From IMG/VR virus record IMGVR_UViG_3300006037_000034, positions 1-23,497 of that record: DNA of 23,497 nucleotides; one strand, given 5' to 3'. The translations under genes and the position numbers were made by a program. The notes under the pieces were generated by a model that searched no databases, had not been told where the DNA came from, and was given only the letters and a program-made list of their open reading frames with translations. Of this stretch, positions 6,463 to 20,250 are shown one piece after another. Position 1 is the first letter of the stretch, and each line of letters starts with the position of its first letter. This DNA is from a virus.

Positions 6463-9400
6463 TTTACCCTGAATTTATTGTAAACAATACTATTTCCTTT
6501 CTTTTGGGTTTTAATTATATTCATAGTTCCCTGAATAATTTCGCCCAACTGAATATTCGTTTCGGGTTTATTTTCGATAATATTAGTCAAATCTTCCAAT
6601 TTCTGAACTATTAAGCTACTTGACCACCCAGGCGATAGCTGAACCGCTCCGTCCCCCTTATTAATTAGTTTTCCGTTGTTGTATTCCATTGCAATTTTGG
6701 CGATTTCATTCGTGGATAAATTTCCAGTCATTGCGGAAAGTTTCGGGTTTAAAATCTTTTCCGAGCCGTCAACCCTTACAACGTGCCCGTCCCGACCTGA
6801 AAGTTGTGGCATTCCAAGGGCTTGCGAAACCGTCCCGTCCGTACCCTCGTAAAAGGTAGGTAAAGACGAAATAAACTGATTTAAAAGAGTAATATCTGTT
6901 ATTGTTTTTGCTAGTGGATTCGGCTCGTTTTTTTCCACGTTTGCCGTATAACTTGCAAATACGCTTTCCGCTAATTTTATTCGTTCTTGACGGCGTTGTT
7001 CTTGCTCTTTTTTACGATTAGCTTCAACGATTAGTTTTTGTTGTTCTGCAAGGCTTTCTTTTGCCGTTATATTTCCATTTGCCGCCATTGTTTGTAAATT
7101 GGAATACATTGTTTCAGCCGCTGCAATTTCTTTGTCGTATTGAGCTATTTTCTCGTTTGACCTTTTCACAAAGTAGTCGGCCGCCATTTTTACAAATTGT
7201 TTCTGGGTTTCAAAGTTCTTTTTTGCGCCGTCGCCCTCTATTTTTGTAATTTCGTCCGTTTTCTTTTGTGTGGCTTCAATTTGTGCATCAATGATTTTGT
7301 CGTTTTCGGAATTAATTTCATTGTTTTTATCCACTTCCAATTCGACAATTTTATCTTTTGATTTTTCTTCCGCAATTTCAATTTCCAAAAGTTTATCCGA
7401 ATTTCTTTGTATGTTATTTTCTTCAATTAACTTTAAATCTTCGGCATATTGGTCGTTTATCGCTTTCTTTTGTGCTGCGCTTATTCCCTCTTGAGCCAAT
7501 AATTTATCCCTGCGTTCCTGCGCTAATTGAATTTCGGCCGCATCCATTAAACGGTATCGCTCGATTATTCCATTTATTTCCAACTGCAAACGATCCGCTT
7601 CAAACTTTTCAATTAAGGCGTATTTTTTCAATATTAGTTCTTCAAAAAGTAAATAGCTGGAATCTTCGCTTGCCATTACTTCGCCACCGTTGCTTATGTT
7701 TGCAATATCCTGCGAAACTTGCGTTTCAATAGCTGTTTCAGCTTGTTTAATCGCCCTTTCGTTTTCTATTTCTGCTAATTGGTTTAACAAATCGGTCTGG
7801 ATTGTTAAATATTCGTTGGTTTTTTCGTATTCTAGATTAACCGCTTTCATTACCGGGGTTTTGGCGCTAACTTTTCCCGTGTTATTTTCGTGGCTTATTG
7901 AATTTTCCTTTATTAAAACATTCGATTCGTCAACCAAATCATTGTATTCCTTTTCGGCCTTGTTTAAACCTATTATTTCGCCCGTTAACCTTGTTGCATC
8001 TTCAGCGAGTTTTTTTACCGTTCCTTTTTGTTCTAATTCGTACAAATTCTTAATTCCAGCCCTATCCAATGCCGCTTGTTGTGCGGAAGAAATTGTTGCG
8101 AATTTCCCCGATTTAGCAACGTCCGCTTCAAGCTTTTTTAATAAATCAAAATCTTTTACTTTTTGGGAATATTCCTCTTTTCTGGTTTTTTGACCGTATT
8201 TTAATCGGTTTAAACCGTCCTTTTCTATATCCTTATTTCTTTTTAATTGTTCTTCGTCGAGTTTTTTAGAGCTTTCCCCTGCCGTTTTACGGTCTCTAAT
8301 TTCCAAGTCTAACAACCTTTTTTGTTCGGCAACCCAGTCTTGAGTTCTTTTTGTAACTTCCGAAATATTTTTAGCCGCTTTTTTGTCTGCCCTTGCTAAA
8401 AGTTCTTTTTGTTCCCTAGCTGATTTTGCACCGCTGGCAATATCATACAAAGCAACCGCCATTTCAACCATAACACCAATTAAAGCAATCCAAGGCACCG
8501 CCGACATTGCTTTTCCTGCCTTGGAAACCCCGTCGCCAGCTAATTTCGCGCCCTCGCCAGCTTGTTTTCCTGCTTTAAACAAGTCCATCATTCCGGCTGC
8601 TACATTTTTCAGGCCGCCAGTCATAATAAAATTATACGCCTGTATTGATTTTTGGATCGCTAAATACGTTCCCCATGCTAAAACAACCTTTCCAACTAAG
8701 CTTACAATCGTGGTTAAATTTTGGGCTAAAAAGCTTAAACCCTCAACTAAAATTGCACTCGTTCCCTCGCCGGAAGACAACCCCAAAATTAAAGCGTTCC
8801 AACTTTCTTTTAATTCATTAAAGGCAAAAGACAAAGTTTTTGTTCGGTCTTCGGCTTGTTTTGAAGCCGTACCCTGAGCGCCCATTCCCTCGGTTAATTC
8901 CTTAACTCTATCGGTATTCGCGATCAAATTTGTAGCCGAAACAGTGTTTTCCATTCCGAAAACCTTTACCATTGCAGCGTTATCCTTTAACAACGGTTTT
9001 AATAAAGCTAATTTGTCAGCCATTGAAGTCGCTGGATTTTTTAAATCCTCAAAGGAAATTCCCAACGCCTGCAACCTTTGTTGTGCTTCAATTGGTAAAG
9101 CGTCAGGGGCCGAAATTTTTAGCATTACATTTCTTAACGCCGTACCCGCTTCCGCGCCTTTCAATCCTTTTTCTGCTAGGGTTTCAATTAATGCAACGCT
9201 TTCTTCTACTGAAACATTTGAGTTTTTGGCAACCGCTCCAAATTTTAATAAAGCTTCCGTAACTTGCGGAATTTCGGCGCTACCTAATAACGCCCCATTT
9301 GCGAGCGCGTCGATAAATTGTCCTGCCTTTTCAGCTGGCGCGCCAAATTGATTCATCGCATCCGTTAAAGCTGTCGCCGCATCTGGTAAAGTCATTCCTG

Positions 9401-10349
9401 ACGCTTGACTTAATGTAATTGCCGACTGAGTAACCGCGTCCAATGCTTCGGCGTTTGACAATAATTCAGGTTTTGCGGAACCAATTAATTTATAGGCTTC
9501 AATTACAGCACTAGCGCCACCCTCAACGCCTTTACCTAGTTCAATGGCTTGTTCCTTGAAATATGTTAAGTCAGCGCCACCAGCACCCGTAATTGAAACT
9601 AAATCCGCAATTTTTTGGTCGAATTCTACAATCGTTCTTCCGGCCCCTTGCACAACGGTTCCAATTCCGAATGCTAAACCTAATTGACCCAAACCGTTTC
9701 GCAATTTATTAACCGCCCCCGTATAATTCCCTACGTTTCTAAAATTGTCCCCGACGGTATTATCAATTTTTTTTAATTGTCTGTCTCCGTCCTGAGCCGC
9801 TGTTGTTACTTGCTTATAAGTTTTGGAAAGTTCCCGGTATTCTTTACCGTTTTTCTTGCCAGAAAGTTCAAGTTTTAGCATTTCGGCTGCTAACTGTTTG
9901 CTTTCATTTTTTAACGCGCGTGTGTTCGACTCTAGTTGTTTGTAGGCATTCGCTTCGTTTTGAATCGTTTTGGTTAATTTTTCCGCTTCCTTTGCCGCTT
10001 TCGCGTCCGCGTTTGCCTGTTGCTGGCTTGTTTTTAGCTTTTTTTGCGCTAAAACTTCAAGTTGTTGGTCCGCTTTTGCCTTTAAAGCAACGGATTTTTG
10101 TAGCTCCTGGTCTATTTTTATTTGGTCTTTTTGTAATTTCTGAGCCTTTTCGGTAGCCTTTGCGAATTCGTCAATACCTTTTGAACTTCCAAAATTAGCC
10201 TTTGCAATATCGGTTTTTGTAACGTTGGCAATTTCAACAAGTACTTTACTTGCTTTCTCAAGAATGGTAATAGTTTTTTCCGCGCTGTCCCGAACGCCTT
10301 TAAAAATATCCTCTTCCGCAATATCCGATTTTGTGATTTTTCTAGCCAT
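6459..10349 (-). CDS. Tail tape measure protein
   Basis: At 1296 residues this is the longest gene in the window. Residues 20-215 are a long charged coiled coil (repeated EKA, KLQKDQIKI, QQANADAKAAKEAEK). Residues 220-500 carry the conserved core of TP901-type tape measures: FGIGTVVQGAGRTIVEFDQ, ITLSQASGMTLPDAATALTD, NGALLGSAEIPQVTEAL and LAEKGLKGAEAGTALRNVM. Residues 536-575 and 617-640 are hydrophobic, membrane-type helices, and residues 640-1150 are again coiled coil. The C-terminal part has GRDGHVVRVDGSEKILNP, which I recall from Bacteroidota tape measures. It sets tail length and fills the tail tube, and is expelled ahead of the DNA. No transglycosylase or peptidase domain is apparent. 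It is preceded by two chaperone-position genes and overlaps the next gene by ATGA. Confidence 0.95.
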   Translation of the reverse strand: MARKITKSDIAEEDIFKGVRDSAEKTITILEKASKVLVEIANVTKTDIAKANFGSSKGIDEFAKATEKAQKLQKDQIKIDQELQKSVALKAKADQQLEVLAQKKLKTSQQQANADAKAAKEAEKLTKTIQNEANAYKQLESNTRALKNESKQLAAEMLKLELSGKKNGKEYRELSKTYKQVTTAAQDGDRQLKKIDNTVGDNFRNVGNYTGAVNKLRNGLGQLGLAFGIGTVVQGAGRTIVEFDQKIADLVSITGAGGADLTYFKEQAIELGKGVEGGASAVIEAYKLIGSAKPELLSNAEALDAVTQSAITLSQASGMTLPDAATALTDAMNQFGAPAEKAGQFIDALANGALLGSAEIPQVTEALLKFGAVAKNSNVSVEESVALIETLAEKGLKGAEAGTALRNVMLKISAPDALPIEAQQRLQALGISFEDLKNPATSMADKLALLKPLLKDNAAMVKVFGMENTVSATNLIANTDRVKELTEGMGAQGTASKQAEDRTKTLSFAFNELKESWNALILGLSSGEGTSAILVEGLSFLAQNLTTIVSLVGKVVLAWGTYLAIQKSIQAYNFIMTGGLKNVAAGMMDLFKAGKQAGEGAKLAGDGVSKAGKAMSAVPWIALIGVMVEMAVALYDIASGAKSAREQKELLARADKKAAKNISEVTKRTQDWVAEQKRLLDLEIRDRKTAGESSKKLDEEQLKRNKDIEKDGLNRLKYGQKTRKEEYSQKVKDFDLLKKLEADVAKSGKFATISSAQQAALDRAGIKNLYELEQKGTVKKLAEDATRLTGEIIGLNKAEKEYNDLVDESNVLIKENSISHENNTGKVSAKTPVMKAVNLEYEKTNEYLTIQTDLLNQLAEIENERAIKQAETAIETQVSQDIANISNGGEVMASEDSSYLLFEELILKKYALIEKFEADRLQLEINGIIERYRLMDAAEIQLAQERRDKLLAQEGISAAQKKAINDQYAEDLKLIEENNIQRNSDKLLEIEIAEEKSKDKIVELEVDKNNEINSENDKIIDAQIEATQKKTDEITKIEGDGAKKNFETQKQFVKMAADYFVKRSNEKIAQYDKEIAAAETMYSNLQTMAANGNITAKESLAEQQKLIVEANRKKEQEQRRQERIKLAESVFASYTANVEKNEPNPLAKTITDITLLNQFISSLPTFYEGTDGTVSQALGMPQLSGRDGHVVRVDGSEKILNPKLSAMTGNLSTNEIAKIAMEYNNGKLINKGDGAVQLSPGWSSSLIVQKLEDLTNIIENKPETNIQLGEIIQGTMNIIKTQKKGNSIVYNKFRVK

Positions 10350-10353
10350 AATT

Positions 10354-10875
10354 TTACTTGTTCATTCTACCAAATTGATCCAATAAATCAAAGTATTCGG
10401 TAGTAGTTATTTCCTTAATTTTTATTCTTTCTCCAATCCATTTTCCGATATGTAGTAAAGTATCGGCGATTGACATTCCATTTCCAGCATTATTTATTAT
10501 TTGCTGGATCTTGTTTTCTTCAATTTCTATCAAAGTTAGTTTAAATTTGTCTTTTGTTATTACAAATTCGCATTGAAGCAACGCTTTTTTCTTTAATAAA
10601 TTCAACTGCTTTAAATGAATGTCGTTCAATCCGTATCTTTTTAGGTATTCGTCGTAAATTTCAATCCACAAATTGCCCTCAAATTCGCCAAATTCACCCG
10701 TTTCATCCTTTCTAACAAAGTTTAATTCCCCGTTCAAACATTTTATCCAATTATGCAACGGGAGCTCGTCAATCGATTTCCAATGCGTTTTTGACAAATT
10801 GAATGTATTTTTTTCTGATTTCTTCCTGAAGTTTTCCCATGCTTTCCTCGGTAAGCCCAATAATTCCATCGCCAT
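10354..10875 (-). CDS. Tail assembly protein upstream of tape measure (start uncertain)
   Basis: The frame allows 173 residues from the ATG at 10875, which would overlap the upstream gene by 107 bases. The first 26 residues (MAMELLGLPRKAWENFRKKS onwards) are antisense-free but share their DNA with the upstream gene's conserved end, so they may not be translated. A TTG at 10797 would give about 147 residues and a 29-base overlap; an ATT a few codons further is another option. The convincing part begins near IDELPLHNWIKCLNGELNFV and ends EYFDLLDQFGRMNK. Placement four bases before the tape measure is the usual site of a tail assembly chaperone. Fusion to the upstream gene by frameshifting would need +1 (or -2), and I see no classical slippery site for it. 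Confidence 0.6.
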   Translation of the reverse strand: MAMELLGLPRKAWENFRKKSEKNTFNLSKTHWKSIDELPLHNWIKCLNGELNFVRKDETGEFGEFEGNLWIEIYDEYLKRYGLNDIHLKQLNLLKKKALLQCEFVITKDKFKLTLIEIEENKIQQIINNAGNGMSIADTLLHIGKWIGERIKIKEITTTEYFDLLDQFGRMNK

Positions 10876-11215
10876 ATTTAAAAAATAAGTTGTCGTTTCC
10901 TTTAATTGGGTCCGCCTCGATTACAATACTATCTTTTAAAACAACGACGTACATACTACGGTAGAAGTCGCCCGTATCGTCCAAAGTGTACGGCGTGCCC
11001 GCTATTTTTTCAGGGTTTAAACTTTCCGTAAAGTCTGAGTAAAGCCCGATAATGTCCCCGTCTTCGTCAATTCCTTGCTGTAATTGGTCTTCCTGAATCC
11101 ATTTTATAATATTATTCATTAAAGCCTGGTCGAACGCTTCAAGCCATGCCAAACTTTCAGAAAGATTTGCCGCTTTTTTTAATTTGTCGCCCAACAAAGT
11201 TTCCATAAAACCCAT
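10769..11215 (-). CDS. Tail completion / HK97 gp10-like or chaperone-position protein
   Basis: This 148-residue acidic protein contains DDTGDFYRSMYVVVLKDSIVIEAD, which resembles the 'TGxLxxSI' strand seen in HK97 gp10-like tail completion proteins, followed by a C-terminal helix (ESMGKLQEEIRKKYIQFVKNALEID). I assign a tail-completion or minor-tail role by this resemblance and by its place between the major tail protein and tape measure. Start choice: ATG at 11215 lies just after a terminator hairpin and a TAnnTTTG-like box; a second ATG three codons later is possible. Its 3' end overlaps the next gene. It could instead be a tail assembly chaperone. Confidence 0.6.
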   Translation of the reverse strand: MGFMETLLGDKLKKAANLSESLAWLEAFDQALMNNIIKWIQEDQLQQGIDEDGDIIGLYSDFTESLNPEKIAGTPYTLDDTGDFYRSMYVVVLKDSIVIEADPIKGNDNLFFKYGDGIIGLTEESMGKLQEEIRKKYIQFVKNALEID

Positions 11216-11618: not shown

Positions 11619-12521
11619 TTAAGCTGTGAATACTTGCGAACCAGTGAATCCAGTCTTAACAACTGTAAGCGTGTACGAAGTCAACAAAGTTAAAGGAACT
11701 GTTGCCGTGTAACTTCCTGCGATTGAAGGGTTTTCAACTACCGCTGTAATTGTAACCGGTAAACCAGTTGTATTGTTTGTTAACGTGAAATCCGCCAAAA
11801 CTCCACCTTGGAATTTAATTGGGTTTAACGCCGTTCCGTAATCCAATGCAGCTTTAAAAGTTACGTTTGTAACCGTTGAAACAATATCAGTAATATTTAC
11901 ATCCAATAAACCGTCCAATTCGTTAAAATTGATACCAGCCTCAGAAACTTGAATCATGTACATTGTACTTTCGTCGAATAAACGATTAAAGTCGAATCCA
12001 ACCATGATTTTTGAAGTTGTTGAATCCGTAGCAAACATGTACTTTGGATCAAACGAGGAATTATCTACCGGGATAGGGTACAAAAATCCATTTGATTTTG
12101 AACCTACTAAATTTCCATTTACATCAACGATATAAACTCCAAATTCAACACAACGGTTGTTTTGTAATTTACCCAACAAAGTAGGTGAAGAATCTTCCGC
12201 CCACAATTCGCCCGTAAATGAACGCTTACCCTGACGCAAGTAAACCATTCTTCCGCTGTTTGCTTCCTCAAACTGAGTGTCCGCTTTCGGTAACTCTACA
12301 TTCTCGAATTCTGGTAAAGGAAACCAACGTTTTGACGCGTCCAATTCATTTACTAGATCGCTCCATACTGGAACAGGCAAAGATAAATCGATTCCGTTTA
12401 ACGTCCCGTCCGTACCACGCAAAGGAACTAAAATCAATTTTGAAGTAACCGACTGAATCGGTACACAATTAGGTCTTCCAGTATTTGAAAGCCCTGAATC
12501 ACAATTACATCCTAATGACAT
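11619..12521 (-). CDS. Major tail (tube) protein
   Basis: A 300-residue protein starting MSLGCNCDSGLSNTGRPNC. The Cys-rich start (C5, C7, C19) followed by VPIQSVTSKLILVPLRGTDG is one I recall from major tail proteins of Bacteroidota siphoviruses. The middle (WFPLPEFENVELPKADTQFE; RQGKRSFTGELWAEDSS; GKLQNNRCVEFGVYIVDVNG) is a beta-rich tube-type fold, including the Phe/Glu-rich strands expected of the inner tube. Residues about 225-300 form a separate Ig-like domain (ADFTLTNNTTGLPVTITAVV ending TLTVVKTGFTGSQVFTA), as often found decorating the outside of tail tubes. Its position before the chaperone-slot gene and tape measure agrees. The DNA upstream (12522-12568) has a hairpin but no clear promoter. 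Confidence 0.8.
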   Translation of the reverse strand: MSLGCNCDSGLSNTGRPNCVPIQSVTSKLILVPLRGTDGTLNGIDLSLPVPVWSDLVNELDASKRWFPLPEFENVELPKADTQFEEANSGRMVYLRQGKRSFTGELWAEDSSPTLLGKLQNNRCVEFGVYIVDVNGNLVGSKSNGFLYPIPVDNSSFDPKYMFATDSTTSKIMVGFDFNRLFDESTMYMIQVSEAGINFNELDGLLDVNITDIVSTVTNVTFKAALDYGTALNPIKFQGGVLADFTLTNNTTGLPVTITAVVENPSIAGSYTATVPLTLLTSYTLTVVKTGFTGSQVFTA

Positions 12522-12548
12522 ATTTTTTTGTTTTAAAAGTTATTTTTA

Positions 12549-12571
12549 TAGCTTATCGCCTTGATAAACTA
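12549..12571 (-). other. Stem-loop between connector gene and major tail protein gene
   Basis: TAGCTTATC and GATAAACTA pair as an 8-bp stem with one mismatch and a five-base loop; it includes the stop codon of the upstream gene. There is no T-run directly after it on the minus strand, so it is not a standard terminator. It could mark an mRNA processing or stabilising site ahead of the highly expressed tail protein gene. Confidence 0.35.
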
Positions 12572-13270
12572 GCATTTGCAATCGTACCCTTTATAAATCG
12601 GTAGGGTAAACCGTAATTCGACGGCTGTTAAATTTGCATCGAGTATATTCTTTAAAAAACCTTGTTCGCTTTCGCTACCTAATTTCGTCAAAGTTTTTAC
12701 CCTGTAATCTGTCACACGTTGGAAAATTCTGTTGGCATTTACCGACTCTTTGAACTGCTCAACCATGTTTAAAAGTGATTGAATTCTAAATTCGTGAATG
12801 TCCTTAACTTTCCAATTTGTAACGAATCGCCCGTCCACAAATAACAGCCTAATTTCACTCGTTCGTTCAAGTGAATTGTCCCGCCCAAAGGTATTTTCGT
12901 TTAATGGCTCGATTAACCAAATAAAAGGAATTTTATTAACCTCTATTTTGGTAACCGCCCCCCATTCCGAATTAACCTGTATCGGAGTCCCGTAGAAATA
13001 ATACGGAACATAAAGTAACCCAGTCAACGATTCAAACGAATTTTTAACGGTAATTAGATTTAAATTGTAATCTATTTCAAGAATGTTATAAAATACACCT
13101 ATTTCGTCAATTACATATTTTCCTATCCTTGCCCATTTAATGTCGCAAACAGTAATTTTTGAAATAAATTCATTTTGAGCCACTTCGAGAATTTCAACAT
13201 TTGATATTGAAAGCGAAACGTCCATTTTATCTATTATCTCGCGTTTAACTATGTTTACAATATCTTCCAT
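12569..13270 (-). CDS. Head-tail connector / neck protein, hypothetical
   Basis: This 233-residue protein starts MEDIVNIVKREIIDKMDVSLS and is mixed alpha/beta: strands around residues 20-110 (EFISKITVCDIKWARIGKYV; FYNILEIDYNLNLITVKNSF), then a region with IPFIWLIEPLNENTFGRDNS, then a helix-rich part (FRIQSLLNMVEQFKESVNAN). It ends in a beta strand with CKC. It lies between the gp6-like adaptor and major tail protein, where stopper or tail-terminator proteins are encoded, and its start overlaps the adaptor stop (TAATG). I recall proteins of this pattern in Bacteroidota phages annotated only as hypothetical. Role is inferred from order. Confidence 0.6.
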   Translation of the reverse strand: MEDIVNIVKREIIDKMDVSLSISNVEILEVAQNEFISKITVCDIKWARIGKYVIDEIGVFYNILEIDYNLNLITVKNSFESLTGLLYVPYYFYGTPIQVNSEWGAVTKIEVNKIPFIWLIEPLNENTFGRDNSLERTSEIRLLFVDGRFVTNWKVKDIHEFRIQSLLNMVEQFKESVNANRIFQRVTDYRVKTLTKLGSESEQGFLKNILDANLTAVELRFTLPIYKGYDCKC

Positions 13271-13758
13271 TAAAAGAATGGTATAAATGGGTATTTTTTA
13301 ACCCCGTTGAATTCTGGATAAACAAGTAAATTCTGCTTAATATAATGCTGAATTGTTTCATAGGAGCTTAACGCGTCAGCGTATCTACCATGAAGATTTG
13401 ACATTACAAAAGAAGAATTTACACTGTTTTCTCCAGTATTTTTTTGAGCCCCGTCGATCGTTTGTTGTGTGTATGCGTCCCGAGAATATTCAAAATAAAT
13501 AAAGCCTGCCAGCATGTCTGAAATTCCCTTAGAAATCCAAATTTTGTTACATTCGTCTTGAAAAGTAAATTCGCTGTTTAAACCTGTATAAATCGGAAGT
13601 TCTGAGCCAGCCCACAAATTGTATAATTCAACACCAAACAATTCATTTAAAATTTCATTGCTTAATCTGTCTATATACGATTGAATTCTTGGCATGCTTT
13701 CTTCCGTTACAGAAAGTTCGTATTTACCCGTGAAACTAAAAACTGTTACAAATGACAT
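13270..13758 (-). CDS. Head-tail adaptor protein (gp6/DUF6712-like)
   Basis: This 162-residue protein starts MSFVTVFSFTGKYELSVTEE and continues with helices (QSYIDRLSNEILNELFGVEL; CNKIWISKGISDMLAGFIYF) and a C-terminal helix (YADALSSYETIQHYIKQNLL) ending PFIPFF. A helical bundle with a long insertion is the pattern of head-tail adaptor proteins that bind below the portal, and I associate this sequence type with the DUF6712-like family from Bacteroidota phages (memory). Its place, after the capsid protein and a small head gene and before the neck protein, agrees. It overlaps the next gene by one base. Confidence 0.65.
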   Translation of the reverse strand: MSFVTVFSFTGKYELSVTEESMPRIQSYIDRLSNEILNELFGVELYNLWAGSELPIYTGLNSEFTFQDECNKIWISKGISDMLAGFIYFEYSRDAYTQQTIDGAQKNTGENSVNSSFVMSNLHGRYADALSSYETIQHYIKQNLLVYPEFNGVKKYPFIPFF

Positions 13759-13776
13759 GCTTTCTTTTTTTACCTA

Positions 13777-14076
13777 TTATTTTTCTTCCTGAGCCGTTTT
13801 AATCAACTGAATTAATACAGCTTTTTTTGTTCCTGCTGGCACTTCGATTGAAAGCGTTTCTGCAATTTCCATTAATTCAACGACTTTTAATTCGCTTAAA
13901 TTAACTTCCTTTTTTACACAATCAGCGCAACCCTCTTTTTGCTTAGAACATTCACACAACTGAGCGATGTTGTTTGCTAAATAATATTCAGCCGTTCGAA
14001 CTTCGTCCCGTGTTTTAAATTCTGCAATTTCTCCCTTTTTACGGGGTGAAAAATCTCTAATGAATACTATCTTCAT
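13777..14076 (-). CDS. Small head protein with Cys cluster and Rho_N/SAP-like C-terminus
   Basis: This 99-residue protein directly follows the major capsid protein. The N-terminal 40 residues (MKIVFIRDFSPRKKGEIAEF) look like a small beta domain of the type found in small head or head-fibre proteins ('FKxRDEVRTAEYYLAN'). A cysteine cluster follows, C42, C44, C50 and C53 (CECSKQKEGCADC), which could bind a metal ion. Residues 58-95 (NLSELKVVELMEIAETLSIE to AVLIQLIKTA) resemble the helix-extended-loop-helix of Rho N-terminal, LEM or SAP-type domains, often nucleic-acid or protein binding. It may decorate or complete the capsid. Domain calls are by eye. Confidence 0.6.
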   Translation of the reverse strand: MKIVFIRDFSPRKKGEIAEFKTRDEVRTAEYYLANNIAQLCECSKQKEGCADCVKKEVNLSELKVVELMEIAETLSIEVPAGTKKAVLIQLIKTAQEEK

Positions 14077-14086
14077 ACCTGTTAAA

Positions 14087-15409
14087 TTATACCGCTGGAG
14101 TTGCTATTGCTGCCAATGCCGTTTCGATATCAGAACACTTCATGAACGCATCACGGTTAATCATTCGAACGTGGAATTGTAGTCTTTCAACCGCAACCAA
14201 CGTCAACAATTCATGCTCAATATTATCCTTGTTCTCGAATGAAGCCGTAACAGTAGTACGTTTTCTGTCTAGGATTTTTCCTTTTGTCGAATCCAAAACA
14301 TATAACGTATTTTGTTCAACTAATGGAGACGTTACAATTCGCATTCCTGCAATTTGATCCGTAGCTCCAAAAACAAAATTAGGGAACAAATAGTTTCCGT
14401 CAATGTCCTTAGCAAGTAAATAAGTTACCATATCCGTATAATTCATGATAATAGTATCCGCCTGCCATTTGTTTTGCTGTCCAAAAGTAAAAATTTGCGC
14501 TTTCATGCAAGTAACCAAATCACCGATTGTAGGCGTTGCGATTTTGTCGCTGAAATCTGCCAAAGGATTTGCAGGGTTGAATTCACTTGAAATATAATCA
14601 ATTGAAAGCATATCCGTTGCAACTGCTGAAGCTCCAAGTAACAATTCGTATTCAGCTTTTAATGCGATACTTTCGTTAATAAGTTCGCTAATTGCACCTT
14701 CTACAAACGCGTAATCTTCTAGCATGTCAATACAAACGTCAACTAAATCACGAAGTTTAGCAAGTTCAACTGTTCTTTTTGCCCAAGTTACTTTTGTTGT
14801 ACTTGTTGAAGTTGCACAAGCAATAACGAATTTAGCGTCACGAGTGACAACGTTTTGTTCCCAGTAATGCAAGTATTCCGTTGAAACAGGAGTTCTCGAA
14901 AATAAATCCAAAATAGTTGTACGACGTACAGGCTTGTTTTCGATTCCAGCTTCAATTGTTCCAAGGTAATCACGACTACCAATATCGGAAGCTCCCTGAG
15001 TTGCCTTATTTACGTCAAAAGAAAAACCTGCATGCGCTTTTTGAGCCGCTCCGTTTTCTTTAATCGCTTTCAAAACTTCGGAATTGTCCATAATGTACTC
15101 TTTCAAGCCTTTTTCAATTGTGGATTTTGTTCCTTTTTCTCCGATTGACTTCATGGTTAACATTACTGTTTTCATGTTTTCACCTAAAAGACGCATTTCT
15201 TCAGTTTTACCGTCGTTTAACGCTTTTACGGCATTGTCCAAAGTCGCCTGGTCAATTTTACCATCAATATTTTTTTGTAAGTCATTGATAAAAGACTTCA
15301 TTTCTGCATTGTACTCTTTGTACAAATCTGCTTTTTGTTCTGCTTCCATAGCATCAAAACCCGCTTGAGTATGATTTTTAGAAACGAGAAATTCTAAAAA
15401 ATTTTTCAT
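14087..15409 (-). CDS. Major capsid protein, HK97 fold, with N-terminal delta domain
   Basis: A 440-residue protein. Residues 1-125 are charged and helical (EAEQKADLYKEYNAEMKSFI; TEEMRLLGENMKTVMLTMKS), a scaffold-like delta domain. A low-complexity hinge (AAQKAHAGFSFDVNKATQGA, 121-140) is the likely cleavage region. The rest fits the HK97 fold: the N-arm/E-loop region (RRTTILDLFSRTPVSTEYLH), the spine helix (YAFVEGAISELINESIALKA), and A-domain strands (DTIIMNYTDMVTYLLAKD; GMRIVTSPLVEQNTLYVLD), ending in VAVERLQFHVRMINRDAFMK. The protease gene directly upstream supports proteolytic maturation in the procapsid. It is transcribed with the protease and the downstream connectors. Confidence 0.9.
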   Translation of the reverse strand: MKNFLEFLVSKNHTQAGFDAMEAEQKADLYKEYNAEMKSFINDLQKNIDGKIDQATLDNAVKALNDGKTEEMRLLGENMKTVMLTMKSIGEKGTKSTIEKGLKEYIMDNSEVLKAIKENGAAQKAHAGFSFDVNKATQGASDIGSRDYLGTIEAGIENKPVRRTTILDLFSRTPVSTEYLHYWEQNVVTRDAKFVIACATSTSTTKVTWAKRTVELAKLRDLVDVCIDMLEDYAFVEGAISELINESIALKAEYELLLGASAVATDMLSIDYISSEFNPANPLADFSDKIATPTIGDLVTCMKAQIFTFGQQNKWQADTIIMNYTDMVTYLLAKDIDGNYLFPNFVFGATDQIAGMRIVTSPLVEQNTLYVLDSTKGKILDRKRTTVTASFENKDNIEHELLTLVAVERLQFHVRMINRDAFMKCSDIETALAAIATPAV

Positions 15410-15419
15410 TTTTTTTTGT

Positions 15420-16235
15420 TTAAAAATAAATACTAATTGTTTTTTTTGGGTCCGTGCCCGTATTGTTTTGAGTGTCTTTCAACGGCTCGTTTGTTGAAGT
15501 GTTTTCCACGGCTTCAATTTCTTTTTCTATTTCAATCTCCATTGTAGGAGTAAATTCATTACTTCCTTTTACCACTGCTGAACCCTCAATAACCATCGCT
15601 TCGGTAATAGCCCAAAAATAGCCTTTTTCGTCTGCAATTTGAGGATTTACAACAACTGGATAATACTTTTCCCAATTAGCTTTTTCGCTTGAATACGCCG
15701 CTTCATTTGAATTTATGCAAAGGAACATTTTAACGTACCGCATACCGACTGAATGGTTTAATACCCTTCCTTTTCGATACAAATTAAACATAAACTCGTT
15801 CACGTCCTTTTTAATCTGAGCGTTGAAAATTAACGCTTCCGTGGATCCAATAAAATTATAGCCTAACTGTTTCCATTCGATTGTTTCGGTATTTGCTTTT
15901 AAGTTGTCATTTACAGAATCAGCAATAACCTTTTCAAAATCCATTTGGTGTTCCTGAAGCAATAAAAGATTTTTATTTTCCTTTAAGGATTTTTTCCATA
16001 AACCGTTTATATGGCAGTCCATGTGTGAATCAATTACGTTCGTGGTATTAATTACCAGCTTTGCGTTTAAAACGGTTGAATCAGCCCCTGTAATTTCAAC
16101 GCCTGCTTTTGTAACGTTTTCGGTTGCCTGAATCCTAGCGTCGCAAAAATCGCCATGCTTAGTAACGTTCTTTTTTTCCGTAATAATTAAATCACGATTT
16201 TTAAAAACGTGTGCAATTTCTTGTTCCTTTGTCAT
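15420..16235 (-). CDS. Prohead maturation protease, HK97 (S78)-like
   Basis: This 271-residue protein lies directly before the capsid gene, the normal place for a prohead protease. Candidate catalytic residues are H96 in LLLLQEHQMDF and S162 in VLNHSVGMRYVKM, which match the His and the 'SVGF'-type Ser of HK97-family proteases. The strand WAITEAMVIEGSAVVKGSNE near residues 208-227 resembles the conserved C-terminal core 'E-S-V-x-GAN' seen in the family. The last 45 residues are acidic and disordered (EIEIEKEIEAVENTSTNE). It would cut the delta domain of the capsid protein inside the procapsid. Its start overlaps the stop of a 28-codon ORF by ATGA. The family is divergent, so the call relies on motif plus position. 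Confidence 0.7.
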   Translation of the reverse strand: MTKEQEIAHVFKNRDLIITEKKNVTKHGDFCDARIQATENVTKAGVEITGADSTVLNAKLVINTTNVIDSHMDCHINGLWKKSLKENKNLLLLQEHQMDFEKVIADSVNDNLKANTETIEWKQLGYNFIGSTEALIFNAQIKKDVNEFMFNLYRKGRVLNHSVGMRYVKMFLCINSNEAAYSSEKANWEKYYPVVVNPQIADEKGYFWAITEAMVIEGSAVVKGSNEFTPTMEIEIEKEIEAVENTSTNEPLKDTQNNTGTDPKKTISIYF

Positions 16236-16318
16236 TTCTTCACAATTTGCTGTTCTTTTATGGCTTTTTCACGGTCTTTTTTAGCTTTTTTAACCGCTTC
16301 AATCGTTTCTTTATCCAT
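16232..16318 (-). CDS. 28-residue charged peptide ORF coupled to protease gene
   Basis: An ORF begins with ATG at 16318 and ends with TGA at 16232, encoding 28 residues: mostly Lys, Glu and Ala, starting MDKETIEAVKKAKKDREKAI. It ends in an ATGA overlap with the protease start, and lies about 26 bases below a TAnnTTTG box, so it would be the first cistron of the head operon. It may be a translated leader whose job is to bring ribosomes to the protease start, or a tiny helical accessory peptide. No family is recognised. Confidence 0.5.
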   Translation of the reverse strand: MDKETIEAVKKAKKDREKAIKEQQIVKK

Positions 16319-16350
16319 ACCGAAATTTATTAATTGAACTTAGTAGATAG

Positions 16351-16358
16351 CAAATGTA
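16351..16358 (-). promoter_or_regulatory. Probable head-operon promoter -7 box (TACATTTG)
   Basis: The minus strand carries TACATTTG, a full match to the Bacteroidota -7 consensus TAnnTTTG, in the divergent gap between the portal gene and the head operon. The expected start site is near 16344, giving a leader of about 26 bases. No good TTG appears at the usual upstream spacing, which could mean activator dependence. An inverted repeat GCAAT-AA-ATTGC lies at 16368-16379, just upstream. Confidence 0.45.
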
Positions 16359-16410
16359 TGATTTTTTGCAATAAATTGCTTTAATTTGTAGAGAATTAAT
16401 CAATTAAAAT

Positions 16411-17646
16411 ATGGCTATCATAAATCCAACTAACATTATTGACGCTTTATTCGGGTCCCGCGAGTATTATAAAACGCCTAAACCGCAAAATCAATCAATG
16501 CTTTTAACTGGTCAAGCGGAGTTTTTGAATCCTGACACGTGGAATCCTTACAATATTTTCATGACAACGCCCCAGCTTTACGCTGTAATTAATCGTAGAG
16601 GATATTTATTGGCAAGTGGAATCTGGAAACATTACAAAACGGATGCCAGCGGAAAAGTTACTGAGGTGGAAAATAGCCCGTATGTTAAACTTTTGGAGAA
16701 CCCAAACCCAATGCTTCACGGGAACGATTTAATTCGCCAATGGAACGAAAACAAATGTATTTACGGGAATAATTACGAGTACATTTTAAAAGCGTTTGCA
16801 AACCAGGACTTGCCGGACCAATTAACCAATATTTCGCCTGCTTCGGTCGGCATTAAAACGTCAGGAAAATATTACAAACAAACTTCAATGGCGAATATTA
16901 TTCAATATTATGAAGTTTTTGAACAAGGAAATGCCGTTGCAGTTGATCGTATTTTACCAAGTGAAATAAATCATACTAAAATAATTAATTCAATTAATCC
17001 AGTCAAAGGCGAAAGCCCAATGATAGCGATTCACATGCCTATTTCAAATATTCGGGCTGCATATCAATTTCGTAACGTTATAATGACTAAAAAAGGCGCA
17101 CTCGGTTTACTTACCAACGCTTCCAAAGATAGTTCTGGAGCTGTTCCATTACTTGAGCCAGAAAGAAAGCGAATTGACCAAGAATACCAACGTCAATACG
17201 GTATCGGAGACGAACAATCTAAATTGATAATGACAAACGCCTCTCTTTCATGGCAGGCGATGACTTTTCCAACTAAGGATTTAATGTTATTTGAAGAAAT
17301 AAACGAGGATTTTCTAAATATTATTGATAATTACGGGCTAAATGCTAATATTTTTAGCCGAACGCAAGGCAGTACTTTTGAAAATATGAACGAGGGGCTA
17401 AAACAAGCTTATCAGTCCACTATTATTCCCGAAGCGGAAGAACTAGCCATGAATCGTTCTAAGTTGTTTAACCTCTTAGAAAAGGGCGAATTTTTAGAAC
17501 TTGAATATTCTCACATTCCAATTTTGCAGAAAAACAAAAAAGAGCAAACAGAAATTTTAGAAATAAAGGCAAACGCGATTAATACTTTAGCACAAAGTGG
17601 GCTTTATACCAGCGAAGAAATTAAAACTATTATTGATTTGAACTAA
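16411..17646 (+). CDS. Portal protein (only plus-strand gene)
   Basis: A 411-residue portal protein: N-terminal wing (PQLYAVINRRGYLLASGIWK; LLENPNPMLHGNDLIRQWNE; CIYGNNYEYILKAF), stem and crown-side helices (PMIAIHMPISNIRAAYQFRN; DQEYQRQYGIGDEQSKLIMT), and the loop/helix NIFSRTQGSTFENMNEGLKQAY typical of HK97-type portals. It forms the dodecameric ring through which TerL pumps DNA. It is encoded on the strand opposite to all other genes in the window, between terL and the protease gene, where the portal normally lies in the same direction. It has its own terminator. On the plus strand upstream there is only an imperfect -7 box (TTAATTTG, 16381-16388); the A-rich leader ends AATTAAAAT before ATG. 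Confidence 0.9.
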   Translation: MAIINPTNIIDALFGSREYYKTPKPQNQSMLLTGQAEFLNPDTWNPYNIFMTTPQLYAVINRRGYLLASGIWKHYKTDASGKVTEVENSPYVKLLENPNPMLHGNDLIRQWNENKCIYGNNYEYILKAFANQDLPDQLTNISPASVGIKTSGKYYKQTSMANIIQYYEVFEQGNAVAVDRILPSEINHTKIINSINPVKGESPMIAIHMPISNIRAAYQFRNVIMTKKGALGLLTNASKDSSGAVPLLEPERKRIDQEYQRQYGIGDEQSKLIMTNASLSWQAMTFPTKDLMLFEEINEDFLNIIDNYGLNANIFSRTQGSTFENMNEGLKQAYQSTIIPEAEELAMNRSKLFNLLEKGEFLELEYSHIPILQKNKKEQTEILEIKANAINTLAQSGLYTSEEIKTIIDLN

Positions 17647-17654
17647 AAAATTAG

Positions 17655-17684
17655 CGAGATTATTTTGTAACCTCGTTTTTTTTT
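17655..17684 (+). terminator. Intrinsic terminator of the portal gene
   Basis: CGAG (17655-17658) pairs with CTCG (17672-17675), then after one mismatch TTA pairs with TAA around a TTTTG loop. Nine Ts follow on the plus strand (17676-17684), which is a good intrinsic terminator nine bases after the portal stop codon. On the minus strand the same hairpin is followed by CTAATTTTTTAG, so it may also stop terL transcription before it runs antisense into the portal gene. Confidence 0.8.
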
Positions 17685-19104
17685 AAGAATACAAATCCGC
17701 ATGGAATGATTTTATCATGCTACAAAGCCCCTCTAATGAATCGGGCGCGTCGTCGTGTTCAACCTTACCATTCTTTAAATATTCGGTTAAATTTTTCATG
17801 AAGTGGTAATAATCTGAGCCGTGTTCGTAATCTGTTCTAAAATAGCAATTTTCTTTTATAAAGCCAGCCATTTGAGTGATTCTCGAATGTTTATTTGTGG
17901 TTGCCCGAATCGGTAATAAACCAATCATTTTATTTAGTTTCGGTTGAAGTAATTGGACGTACATTCCACCGCCAAAATTGGATTCAACTCTACAATACTC
18001 TGGTAAATGCTTGTTTAAAATTTCGGCTGTAAGTTCGACATTTTCATCCGTCCCTTTGGTTGTGTACAAAATATCGTGAATGTATATTTTTGTGCCTATC
18101 AAATAACCAATTGGAACCGCGTGGGCATCCGTACCCGTGTCCGCAACGTCAATAAATGCCAATTTTCCGTCGGTTTGGTCTGTTTTAAGGTCGTTTGAGT
18201 CGTAATAGTTCAAATCATCTTTGGCAAACAATAAACCCTCCTTAGGCTTCGGATTTTGCATGTACTGAGTATCAAAAACAAATTCGTTTATTTTCCTTAA
18301 TTTATGTAGTTCTTCAATCGTGTGTTTAAACGACCATAACGCCGTGCCGTCTTCCTTAATTGCAGGCAAAGAAATTACGTGCCATGCTCCTGGTTCTATT
18401 TCGGTCAAGTAACCACATAAATCGCTCGAGTGTAACCGCTGCATAATTATAATAATTGGCGTTTTTCTAGAGTTTACACGGTTTCTAATCGTTGTTTCGA
18501 ACTTATTATTTACCTTTTCCCGAACTACTGAACTATCGGCTTCACTTGCTTTCAATGGGTCATCCATAACAATCGCACCGCCAAAAGTTGTTTTATCCGT
18601 TTCTATATTTAAAAATTCGTCAATTTCTTCGTCAACCGTTCCAGCTCCGAAACCCGTGATTGAAGAACTAGAAGAACGCGCCAAAACACCGCCCCCCTCC
18701 GTCGTGTACCATTTTTCTTTCGCCTTACTATCTTTTTTAATTTTTACAGCTGGATAAAGTCTTTGATATTCGTCTGAAAGAACTAAATCTTTTATTTCTT
18801 CGCTATTATCTAGTGCTAAACTATCGGAGTAACTAATATGTATGAATTTTGCGCTAGGGTTTAACGCTAAGCCATGCGCTATGAAGTTTTTAACTGCTAA
18901 TTCCGTCTTTCCGTAACGTGGGGCTATGTTGATAATTAAACGAGTAATTTCGCCGTTCAAAACCTTTTCGAGCGCGTCAACTATTATTTTGTGGTGGTCA
19001 TTTTCTATAAACTTTCTATTAAAACGCTTTTTAAAATGATATTTTGTAAAAAACATTAATGATTTAAGAGTTTTAACCTGAATTACAGCGTCTTTATCGT
19101 TCAT
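17683..19104 (-). CDS. terL: Terminase large subunit (packaging ATPase and nuclease)
   Basis: A 473-residue protein. The ATPase part has a Walker A motif, APRYGKTE at 61-68, Walker B GAIVMDDP at 176-183, and the coupling motif IIIIMQRLH at 217-225. The C-terminal RNase H-like nuclease part shows acidic residues in the right order: FIDVADTGTDAHA (D319, D322), RVESNFGGG (E374) and HDDAPDSLEG (D451, D452, D455). Length is normal for the family. It cuts concatemeric genomes and drives DNA into the procapsid through the portal. Its 3' end reaches the portal terminator, with which it converges. It is separated from TerS by an inserted HNH gene, but its own N-terminus looks complete. Confidence 0.95.
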   Translation of the reverse strand: MNDKDAVIQVKTLKSLMFFTKYHFKKRFNRKFIENDHHKIIVDALEKVLNGEITRLIINIAPRYGKTELAVKNFIAHGLALNPSAKFIHISYSDSLALDNSEEIKDLVLSDEYQRLYPAVKIKKDSKAKEKWYTTEGGGVLARSSSSSITGFGAGTVDEEIDEFLNIETDKTTFGGAIVMDDPLKASEADSSVVREKVNNKFETTIRNRVNSRKTPIIIIMQRLHSSDLCGYLTEIEPGAWHVISLPAIKEDGTALWSFKHTIEELHKLRKINEFVFDTQYMQNPKPKEGLLFAKDDLNYYDSNDLKTDQTDGKLAFIDVADTGTDAHAVPIGYLIGTKIYIHDILYTTKGTDENVELTAEILNKHLPEYCRVESNFGGGMYVQLLQPKLNKMIGLLPIRATTNKHSRITQMAGFIKENCYFRTDYEHGSDYYHFMKNLTEYLKNGKVEHDDAPDSLEGLCSMIKSFHADLYS

Positions 19105-19116
19105 TTTTTTTGGATA

Positions 19117-19641
19117 TTATAAAACATGAAGCCATGATTTTTTATTAATAACGTTATGAATAACTTTTTGCGATACATTATACTTTTTTGCTAATTGTCT
19201 TTGACTGTAATTATTTGTAGAATACAAATGTTTTATTTCAAGAACAATTGATTCGTTTATTTTTGAACAAGCATTATTAGATCCAATTGGTTTTATTAAT
19301 CCTATTTTAATTGCATGTTGTATATTTTCTTTGGCTGAACACCATTCTAAATTTTCAACTCTATTATCTGTTTTAATTCCATTAATATGGTTTACTTGAG
19401 TTTTATTTTGGTTATTTTCAATAAAATTTATCGCTACAATTCTATGCGTTTTCATTGTTTTATGAATTTTATCCAAACTTAAAGTTATTTCATTATATCC
19501 AAATCTGGTTACTTTGGATTTTAAAACTTTTGACTTTAATAATCTACCTAAAGAGTCTATTCTGTCTATTCTTTTTATTTTTCCCAAATTTGAGACTTCA
19601 TAAATACTTTCATAACCTTTAACCTCTTTCCAAACTTCCAT
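19117..19641 (-). CDS. NUMOD4/HNH homing endonuclease
   Basis: A 174-residue protein from ATG at 19641; a TTG two codons upstream is possible. Residues 2-26 are a NUMOD4 DNA-binding motif (WKEVKGYESIYEVSNLGKIK). The HNH core includes HR at 66-67 and VNHINGIKTDNRVENLEW at 83-100, with the second His and the closing Asn/Trp. Residues 127-172 look like a helix-turn-helix (SQRQLAKKYNVSQKVIHNVI). This makes it a free-standing homing endonuclease, expected to cut an allele lacking it. It is inserted between terS and terL and is visibly more AT-rich: the 60 bases from 19141 have 13 G+C against 23 in the terL line at 18601. HNH proteins next to terminases can also help packaging, but the NUMOD4 domain favours homing. 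Confidence 0.85.
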   Translation of the reverse strand: MEVWKEVKGYESIYEVSNLGKIKRIDRIDSLGRLLKSKVLKSKVTRFGYNEITLSLDKIHKTMKTHRIVAINFIENNQNKTQVNHINGIKTDNRVENLEWCSAKENIQHAIKIGLIKPIGSNNACSKINESIVLEIKHLYSTNNYSQRQLAKKYNVSQKVIHNVINKKSWLHVL

Positions 19642-19645
19642 AACC

Positions 19646-19730
19646 AAAAAAACCTATTGACTTTCGAGGTTGAGGACTCTACTCATCAATAGGAATTAAT
19701 TAATGTTTTTAATTGTAGCCTCAACTCTAC
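19646..19730 (-). other. Structured, potentially pseudoknotted RNA leader of the HNH gene
   Basis: On the minus strand a 5' hairpin GTAG/CTAC (19730-19727 with 19718-19715) has the loop AGTTGAGG. Downstream CCTATTGA (19693-19686) pairs perfectly with TCAATAGG (19660-19653). The loop sequence GTTGAGG of the first hairpin is fully complementary to CCTCAAC (19675-19669) inside the second stem's loop, giving a possible 7-bp pseudoknot. Seven Ts follow the 8-bp stem directly, so it also looks like a terminator, and the HNH start is only a few bases further on. It may hold down HNH expression. Confidence 0.5.
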
Positions 19731-19746
19731 ACATTAAAGATACAAA

Positions 19747-20250
19747 TTAATATTCGTTATCCAATTCTTTCGATATTCTTTTTATTTCTTCGGGGGTTAA
19801 ATTAGAAACGTTTATACTACCTTTTAAATCGGTTTCTGACTTATCAATTAACCCTTGAGTACGTGCTATTATATTTTCTTTGAACGTGCCTATAACAGCT
19901 CCCTCCCATTGTTGAGTCTCAATTATATTCTCGATTTCCTCTAAGACTACCAAAAAATCTTTACTTGCTGTCTTTTTAAATTCATTAAACCAACCTTTTG
20001 AGCATCCAATGTATACAAAAAATCCACCTTTTGAATAAGGTCGTGCCGTTGGTTTTTCCTCTTTGCTTTCACCTGAAAATTCTCCTTTATCGTATGAAGT
20101 TGACTTTGTGGAAATCCAAGGGTTTTCATCGCACCATTCAAAATACTCGTGTGCTGACTCTCTTAATAATTCAGGTGATTCAAATAGTTTTTCCCTACCG
20201 TGTTTTGAACGAATTTTCCAGAACTGATTTCCTTTAGGAGCTGCGCACAT
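19747..20250 (-). CDS. terS: Terminase small subunit (gp3-like)
   Basis: A 167-residue protein with the N-terminal pattern APKGNQFWKIRSKHGREKLF that I know from small terminase subunits of the P22 gp3-like DNA-packaging family in Bacteroidota phages. It continues with SPELLRESAHEYFEWCDENP, then a helix-turn-helix-like part (YSKGGFFVYIGCSKGWFNEF), a central helical part (VVLEEIENIIETQQWEGAVI) and a C-terminal tail (NLTPEEIKRISKELDNEY). It recognises the packaging site and recruits TerL. Its ATG shares one base with the stop of the membrane protein upstream (TAATG). The gap to terL holds the HNH gene. Confidence 0.85.
   Translation of the reverse strand: MCAAPKGNQFWKIRSKHGREKLFESPELLRESAHEYFEWCDENPWISTKSTSYDKGEFSGESKEEKPTARPYSKGGFFVYIGCSKGWFNEFKKTASKDFLVVLEEIENIIETQQWEGAVIGTFKENIIARTQGLIDKSETDLKGSINVSNLTPEEIKRISKELDNEY

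Follow-up and report, generated by a model that had tools for sequence, protein, structure and literature searches.

The 23,497-base virus record analyzed here (the window) carries its head genes in the usual order terL–portal–protease, and direction alone differs, for the portal gene (Table 1). The head genes of phages are normally transcribed in one direction. In the window terS, an HNH endonuclease gene, terL, the gene in the protease position and the capsid and tail genes all lie on the minus strand, and the portal gene is the sole plus-strand open reading frame in a non-overlapping set of ORFs of at least 60 aa, converging with terL and diverging from the protease operon. The first-pass annotation had described the portal gene as alone on the opposite strand with the gene order retained, and the gene strands confirm that description. 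No RNA families or tRNAs were found in the window.

Table 1. Coordinates of the genes and predicted signals around the reversed portal gene of the window.
Feature	Coordinates	Strand	Evidence or remark
Major capsid protein gene	14087–15409	-	PF05065, 1e-15
Gene in head maturation protease position, first large gene of the leftward head–tail operon	15420–16235	-	Position and conservation
Tiny lysine-rich ORF, 28 aa, C-terminal IVKK	16232–16318	-	Stop overlaps protease start (ATGA)
Divergent -7 element TACATTTG (CAAATGTA on the plus strand), exact	16351–16358	-	Predicted to serve the protease–capsid–tail operon
Spacer between back-to-back -7 elements, 22 bp	16359–16380		Commonest spacing class in relatives
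Putative portal -7 element TTAATTTG, one mismatch to TAnnTTTG	16381–16388	+	22 nt before portal ATG
Portal protein gene	16411–17646	+	PF04860; PHROG portal families; HK97 portal fold
Convergent junction with a hairpin flanked on either side by T runs	17652–17686		Between portal and terL stops
terL, terminase large subunit gene, convergent with portal	17683–19104	-	PHROG 38, 5e-96; PF22530
terS, terminase small subunit gene	19747–20250	-	PF16677, 1e-23

The 411-residue product of the plus-strand gene matches the Pfam Phage_portal family (PF04860, 3e-28) with a profile score of 99 bits (cut-off 39), and also matches PHROG portal families. An AlphaFold2 model from a 26-sequence alignment is of medium confidence (mean pLDDT 76.6), and HK97 portal structures rank first among its PDB matches (E 1e-14, TM 0.56); the product is an HK97-type portal protein. 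The large gene to its left has no Pfam or PHROG match of its own, and we designate it a putative protease gene from its position and from blastp links to genes at the same position in relatives. It is preceded by a tiny lysine-rich ORF that accompanies the protease in both reversed and co-directional arrangements, mostly overlapping it as ATGA; a mechanical search finds a short ORF at this place in 48 of 76 loci, a few of which are likely chance occurrences.

The reversed orientation is deeply conserved. A search of viral contigs yielded 20 loci with portals 55–99% identical to that of the window, and in all 20 the portal gene points away from protease and capsid and converges with terL wherever terL is present on the contig; no close relative with a co-directional portal was seen in this identity range. 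When further profile searches were added, with the best 80 loci taken from each search, 122 distinct related portals were obtained among the matches listed, of which 104 are reversed relative to the terminase, protease and capsid genes, 17 are co-directional, and one is reversed together with terL; these proportions are not a census, because the queries were reversed portals or their near relatives. Gene labels in these loci were carried over from a small number of seeds through chains of blastp matches (E 1e-6), some of the loci are short contigs, and the portal start codons were picked by rule. Of 11 contigs 32–42 kb long, nine have no credible opposite-strand gene besides the portal, and the remaining two have further opposite blocks; two opposing ORFs among the nine contigs, one of 149 residues lying over the protease gene and an unmatched one of 102 residues in another contig, were treated as spurious. 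The single locus with a reversed terL (L105, 3167–5740) lies inside the reversed clade and carries a flip of two genes: portal and terL together run against terS, protease and capsid.

These comparisons dispose of two explanations in which the orientation would not be a property of the lineage. The window is one metagenome contig, and the first-pass annotation had raised the possibility of a mis-oriented segment; the 104 distinct portal sequences are from contigs of many separate datasets and keep the same orientation, and an assembly error is thus excluded for the group, with the exception of one locus known from a single contig (L111, below), and for the window its probability is negligible. 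A programmed invertible segment that flips between two states would likewise place a single turned gene amid otherwise one-way genes, and inverted repeats had been suggested near 16320–16410 and 17647–17690, but there are none linking the two flanks, and the 20 closest loci include no mixture of orientations. We regard this possibility as effectively refuted.

A first scan of bacterial genomes found no prophages with a related portal, and a second found two loci in metagenome-assembled genomes (MAGs), both with a co-directional portal; distant portals on gut scaffolds are co-directional too. Searches with four portal queries found no cultured phage within the reversed clade, and the closest cultured relatives found by portal are Freyavirus (Polaribacter phage Freya) and Lillamyvirus (Flavobacterium phages), at 30% and 25% identity respectively. 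Both share the gene order of the window (terS–terL–portal–small ORF–protease–capsid), with the tiny ORF present in the Freya and Lillamy phages as well, but their portal genes are co-directional with the other head genes. The promoter motif described below and these relatives suggest that the hosts of the reversed group are probably Bacteroidota. In the open-licence papers searched, we came upon no description of a portal gene reversed on its own.

At its 3’ end the portal gene meets terL tail to tail. The junction contains a minus-strand hairpin (17675–17655) and a plus-strand version that has one mismatch and is followed by a long T run, and this junction terminator is real but moderate; a simple terminator scan of positions 12000–20000 gave four sites compared with 5.6 in shuffled sequences, and thus no excess. 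Convergence with terL at a strong terminator had been claimed previously, and while the convergence stands, the strength does not apply to the window: it is in relatives that stronger hairpins occur at the same junction. Among 66 reversed representatives the downstream gene lies no more than 3 bp from the portal in two, and gaps of at least 15 bp are present in 37, of which 21 have a terminator-like hairpin with a T run on the plus strand and 15 on the minus strand (raw counts). The clearest junction hairpins, convincing by eye, are those of L002, L005, L027, L065, L126 and L160. In a further 27 of the 66 the portal overlaps the downstream gene tail to tail (in one of them the neighbor is just a fragment of the portal's own split ORF), such that the 3’ ends of portal and neighbor must overlap. 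This overlap, together with the convergence itself, is what might be expected if terS–terL transcription entered the portal gene on the other strand and repressed it until upstream transcription stopped; however, the terminator-like hairpins at many of the roomier junctions would limit any such overlap, and we consider antisense control of this kind quite unlikely.

At its 5’ end the portal gene shares an intergenic region with the leftward operon. A scan for Escherichia-type sigma-70 promoters performed no better than on shuffled sequences, and the Bacteroidota motif was used instead. This is a -7 box, TAnnTTTG, which in Flavobacterium psychrophilum spans -12 to -5 (PMC9723704); no -33 box was identifiable in F. 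johnsoniae (PMC7366714), and we found no TTTG column at -33 in 45 aligned portal promoters and no such box in the window. The window has two -7 elements back to back, one facing the portal gene and the other the protease operon, and the position rule for F. psychrophilum (PMC9723704) predicts starts near 16393 (plus strand) and 16346 (minus strand).

This arrangement is a recurrent feature of the reversed portals. For 69 reversed representatives, the 140 bp preceding the portal were scanned for the pattern CAAAnnTA-N(0–40)-TAnnTTTG, and perfect pairs are present in 42 compared with 0.38 expected from dinucleotide shuffles, rising to 58 compared with 8.8 if one mismatch is permitted; the 11 representatives with no pair are partly accounted for by uncertain start codons. 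Viewed across the same 733 kb, 44 pairs lie upstream of reversed portals and 17 in all of the remainder. A control Bacteroidetes MAG of 4.2 Mb contains 90 pairs, compared with 46 for the pattern read backwards, indicating that such pairs are a general feature at low density; among the pairs listed, the MAG spacers are by eye broadly distributed except for an excess at 2 bp. The spacers upstream of the reversed portals cluster at 2, 12–15, 20–24 and 30–32 bp, with periodicity in a Rayleigh test at period 10 (p about 5e-11 with all values, and about 1e-9 with clades of equal spacing merged, leaving 35 groups), and the spacing class changes 13 times on the portal tree. The fit is about as good for any period from 9 to 10.5, and steps of approximately one helical turn are a reading of these data and not a measurement. 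The TAnnTTTG element itself is shared with the sigma-A promoters of Bacteroidota, from which the reversed group differs in having two such elements back to back at spacings that cluster in steps of roughly one helical turn. From their match to the consensus we infer that the paired elements are active promoters, and the proposal in the first-pass annotation that the portal is separately transcribed is supported as far as sequence can tell.

A portal promoter is probably older than the reversal. When all candidate portal starts are searched, a TAnnTTTG box lies in the terL–portal interval 15–43 nt before a portal ATG in 10 of 17 co-directional viral and phage loci, and in 12 of 22 when the MAG and gut loci are added. 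A flip of the gene therefore need not have abolished its expression.

The history of the orientation can be followed on a portal tree of 80 representatives, where three changes are needed compared with 11 when the labels are shuffled. A single clade of all reversed portals is rejected (p-AU 1e-41), but when L111 is left out a single reversed clade is not rejected (p 0.083). The tree thus fits one ancient inversion and one later, independent inversion in L111, and is compatible with, and does not prove, a single old event. The nearest relative of L111 is the co-directional L084, itself among the loci with a -7 box before the portal; the two share 70–82% DNA identity, the portal block (3599–4906 in L084) is oppositely directed in L111 (4272–5574), and L111 has no protease gene. 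This looks like a second and more recent in-place inversion of the portal, with the reservation that it is seen in one contig only, in which an assembly fault could have produced it. A one-gene inversion in an ancestor, as had been proposed, accords with these trees and with the 104 reversed portals among 122, and we treat the orientation as a trait of the lineage.

The protease tree conflicts with the portal tree, and the orientation needs four changes upon it, implying that the neighboring genes recombine while the direction travels with the portal; it follows that the in-place nature of the old inversion is not directly readable. This conflict and the mosaicism of the head genes could also be accommodated if a portal gene and its promoter had come in from another phage, facing the opposite way, and displaced the resident portal. 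Such a replacement seems unlikely, since the terL–portal–protease order is exact, the tiny ORF remains with the protease, and L111 has an inverted block homologous to that of L084.

The explanation that we favor, with a probability of roughly three in four, is that the portal gene was flipped in place in an ancestor shared by a large phage group, probably infecting Bacteroidota, that the orientation has been kept since, and that the portal is now a one-gene transcription unit at a divergent node. Its transcript would start at its own promoter, back to back with that of the protease–capsid–tail operon, and would run rightward until it meets terL tail to tail, often with a hairpin terminator there. 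The common location of the two promoters suggests a common timing, and both halves of the node might fire together late in infection, tying the portal to the capsid and tail. Separate elements could have separate strengths, in which case portal dosage would be set independently; a reversed portal would also escape read-through from terS–terL, which a co-directional portal would receive. The portal is the ring by which DNA passes into the virus head, and each head needs one such ring for its hundreds of capsid subunits. The earlier argument that a protein needed in only 12 copies is transcribed separately would fit this scheme, and control of dosage or timing may be the reason for the reversal.

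The strongest rival, stronger than antisense control, is that the inversion brought no benefit, was costless because the portal already had its own promoter, and has been passively inherited thereafter. The promoter-like box before the portal in many co-directional relatives is in its favor, as is the sufficiency of one old and one recent event to account for nearly all loci; against it, no switch back to co-direction is seen within the reversed clade despite frequent exchange of neighbors, and the paired boxes hold to clustered spacings through the 13 changes of class. We place it somewhat below even odds. A more elaborate reading is that the reversed portal and a phase-locked promoter pair constitute a regulatory device. 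RNA polymerases would share a single node or compete for it, and the geometry and strength of the opposed -7 elements would determine when portal and capsid transcripts are made together and in what proportion, with selection keeping the device while the surrounding genes are swapped; this is conceivable but we hold it to be doubtful.

The nearest precedent for a divergent portal is phage P2, where the portal gene (Q) diverges from the scaffold/protease and capsid genes (O-N-M-L, rightward), as in the window, and the P-Q and O-N-M-L promoters are located in one region with one annotated activator site for both. In P2, however, Q shares a leftward operon with terL (P), whereas the portal of the window stands alone and converges with terL. 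With terL on the other strand the window portal is not P2-like, and shared ancestry of the two arrangements is not implied. A lone turned portal with a constrained paired promoter provides a natural experiment on portal dosage and timing, and the reversed portal is a simple genomic marker for an uncultured group of phages.

The genes bordering the portal vary considerably in the group. The terL gene is chimeric: its C-terminal nuclease part is 57–62% identical to that of the window (17683–18243, minus strand), and the N-terminal ATPase part has no detectable similarity, belonging to another family (PF04466, Terminase_3) in L010 (9659–10933) and L016 (9286–10566). L001 has portal, head and tail proteins 92–99% identical to those of the window but a terL (9237–10955) only 82% identical, with a portal–terL gap of about 280 bp compared with 36 in the window; its terL may have been acquired in a recent exchange beginning right at the convergent junction. 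Homing-type nucleases are found at module borders, with a NUMOD4/HNH gene between terS and terL in the window (19117–19647) and GIY-YIG-like genes adjoining the divergent node in L009 (4814–5410), L019 (3608–4204) and L068 (5090–5692). Finally, L069 (4295–5713), L070 (2113–4104), L160 (2111–3532) and L203 (4194–5915) contain inserted large genes, on the strand of terL, that separate it from the portal; one of these genes has a tail-fiber PHROG match.
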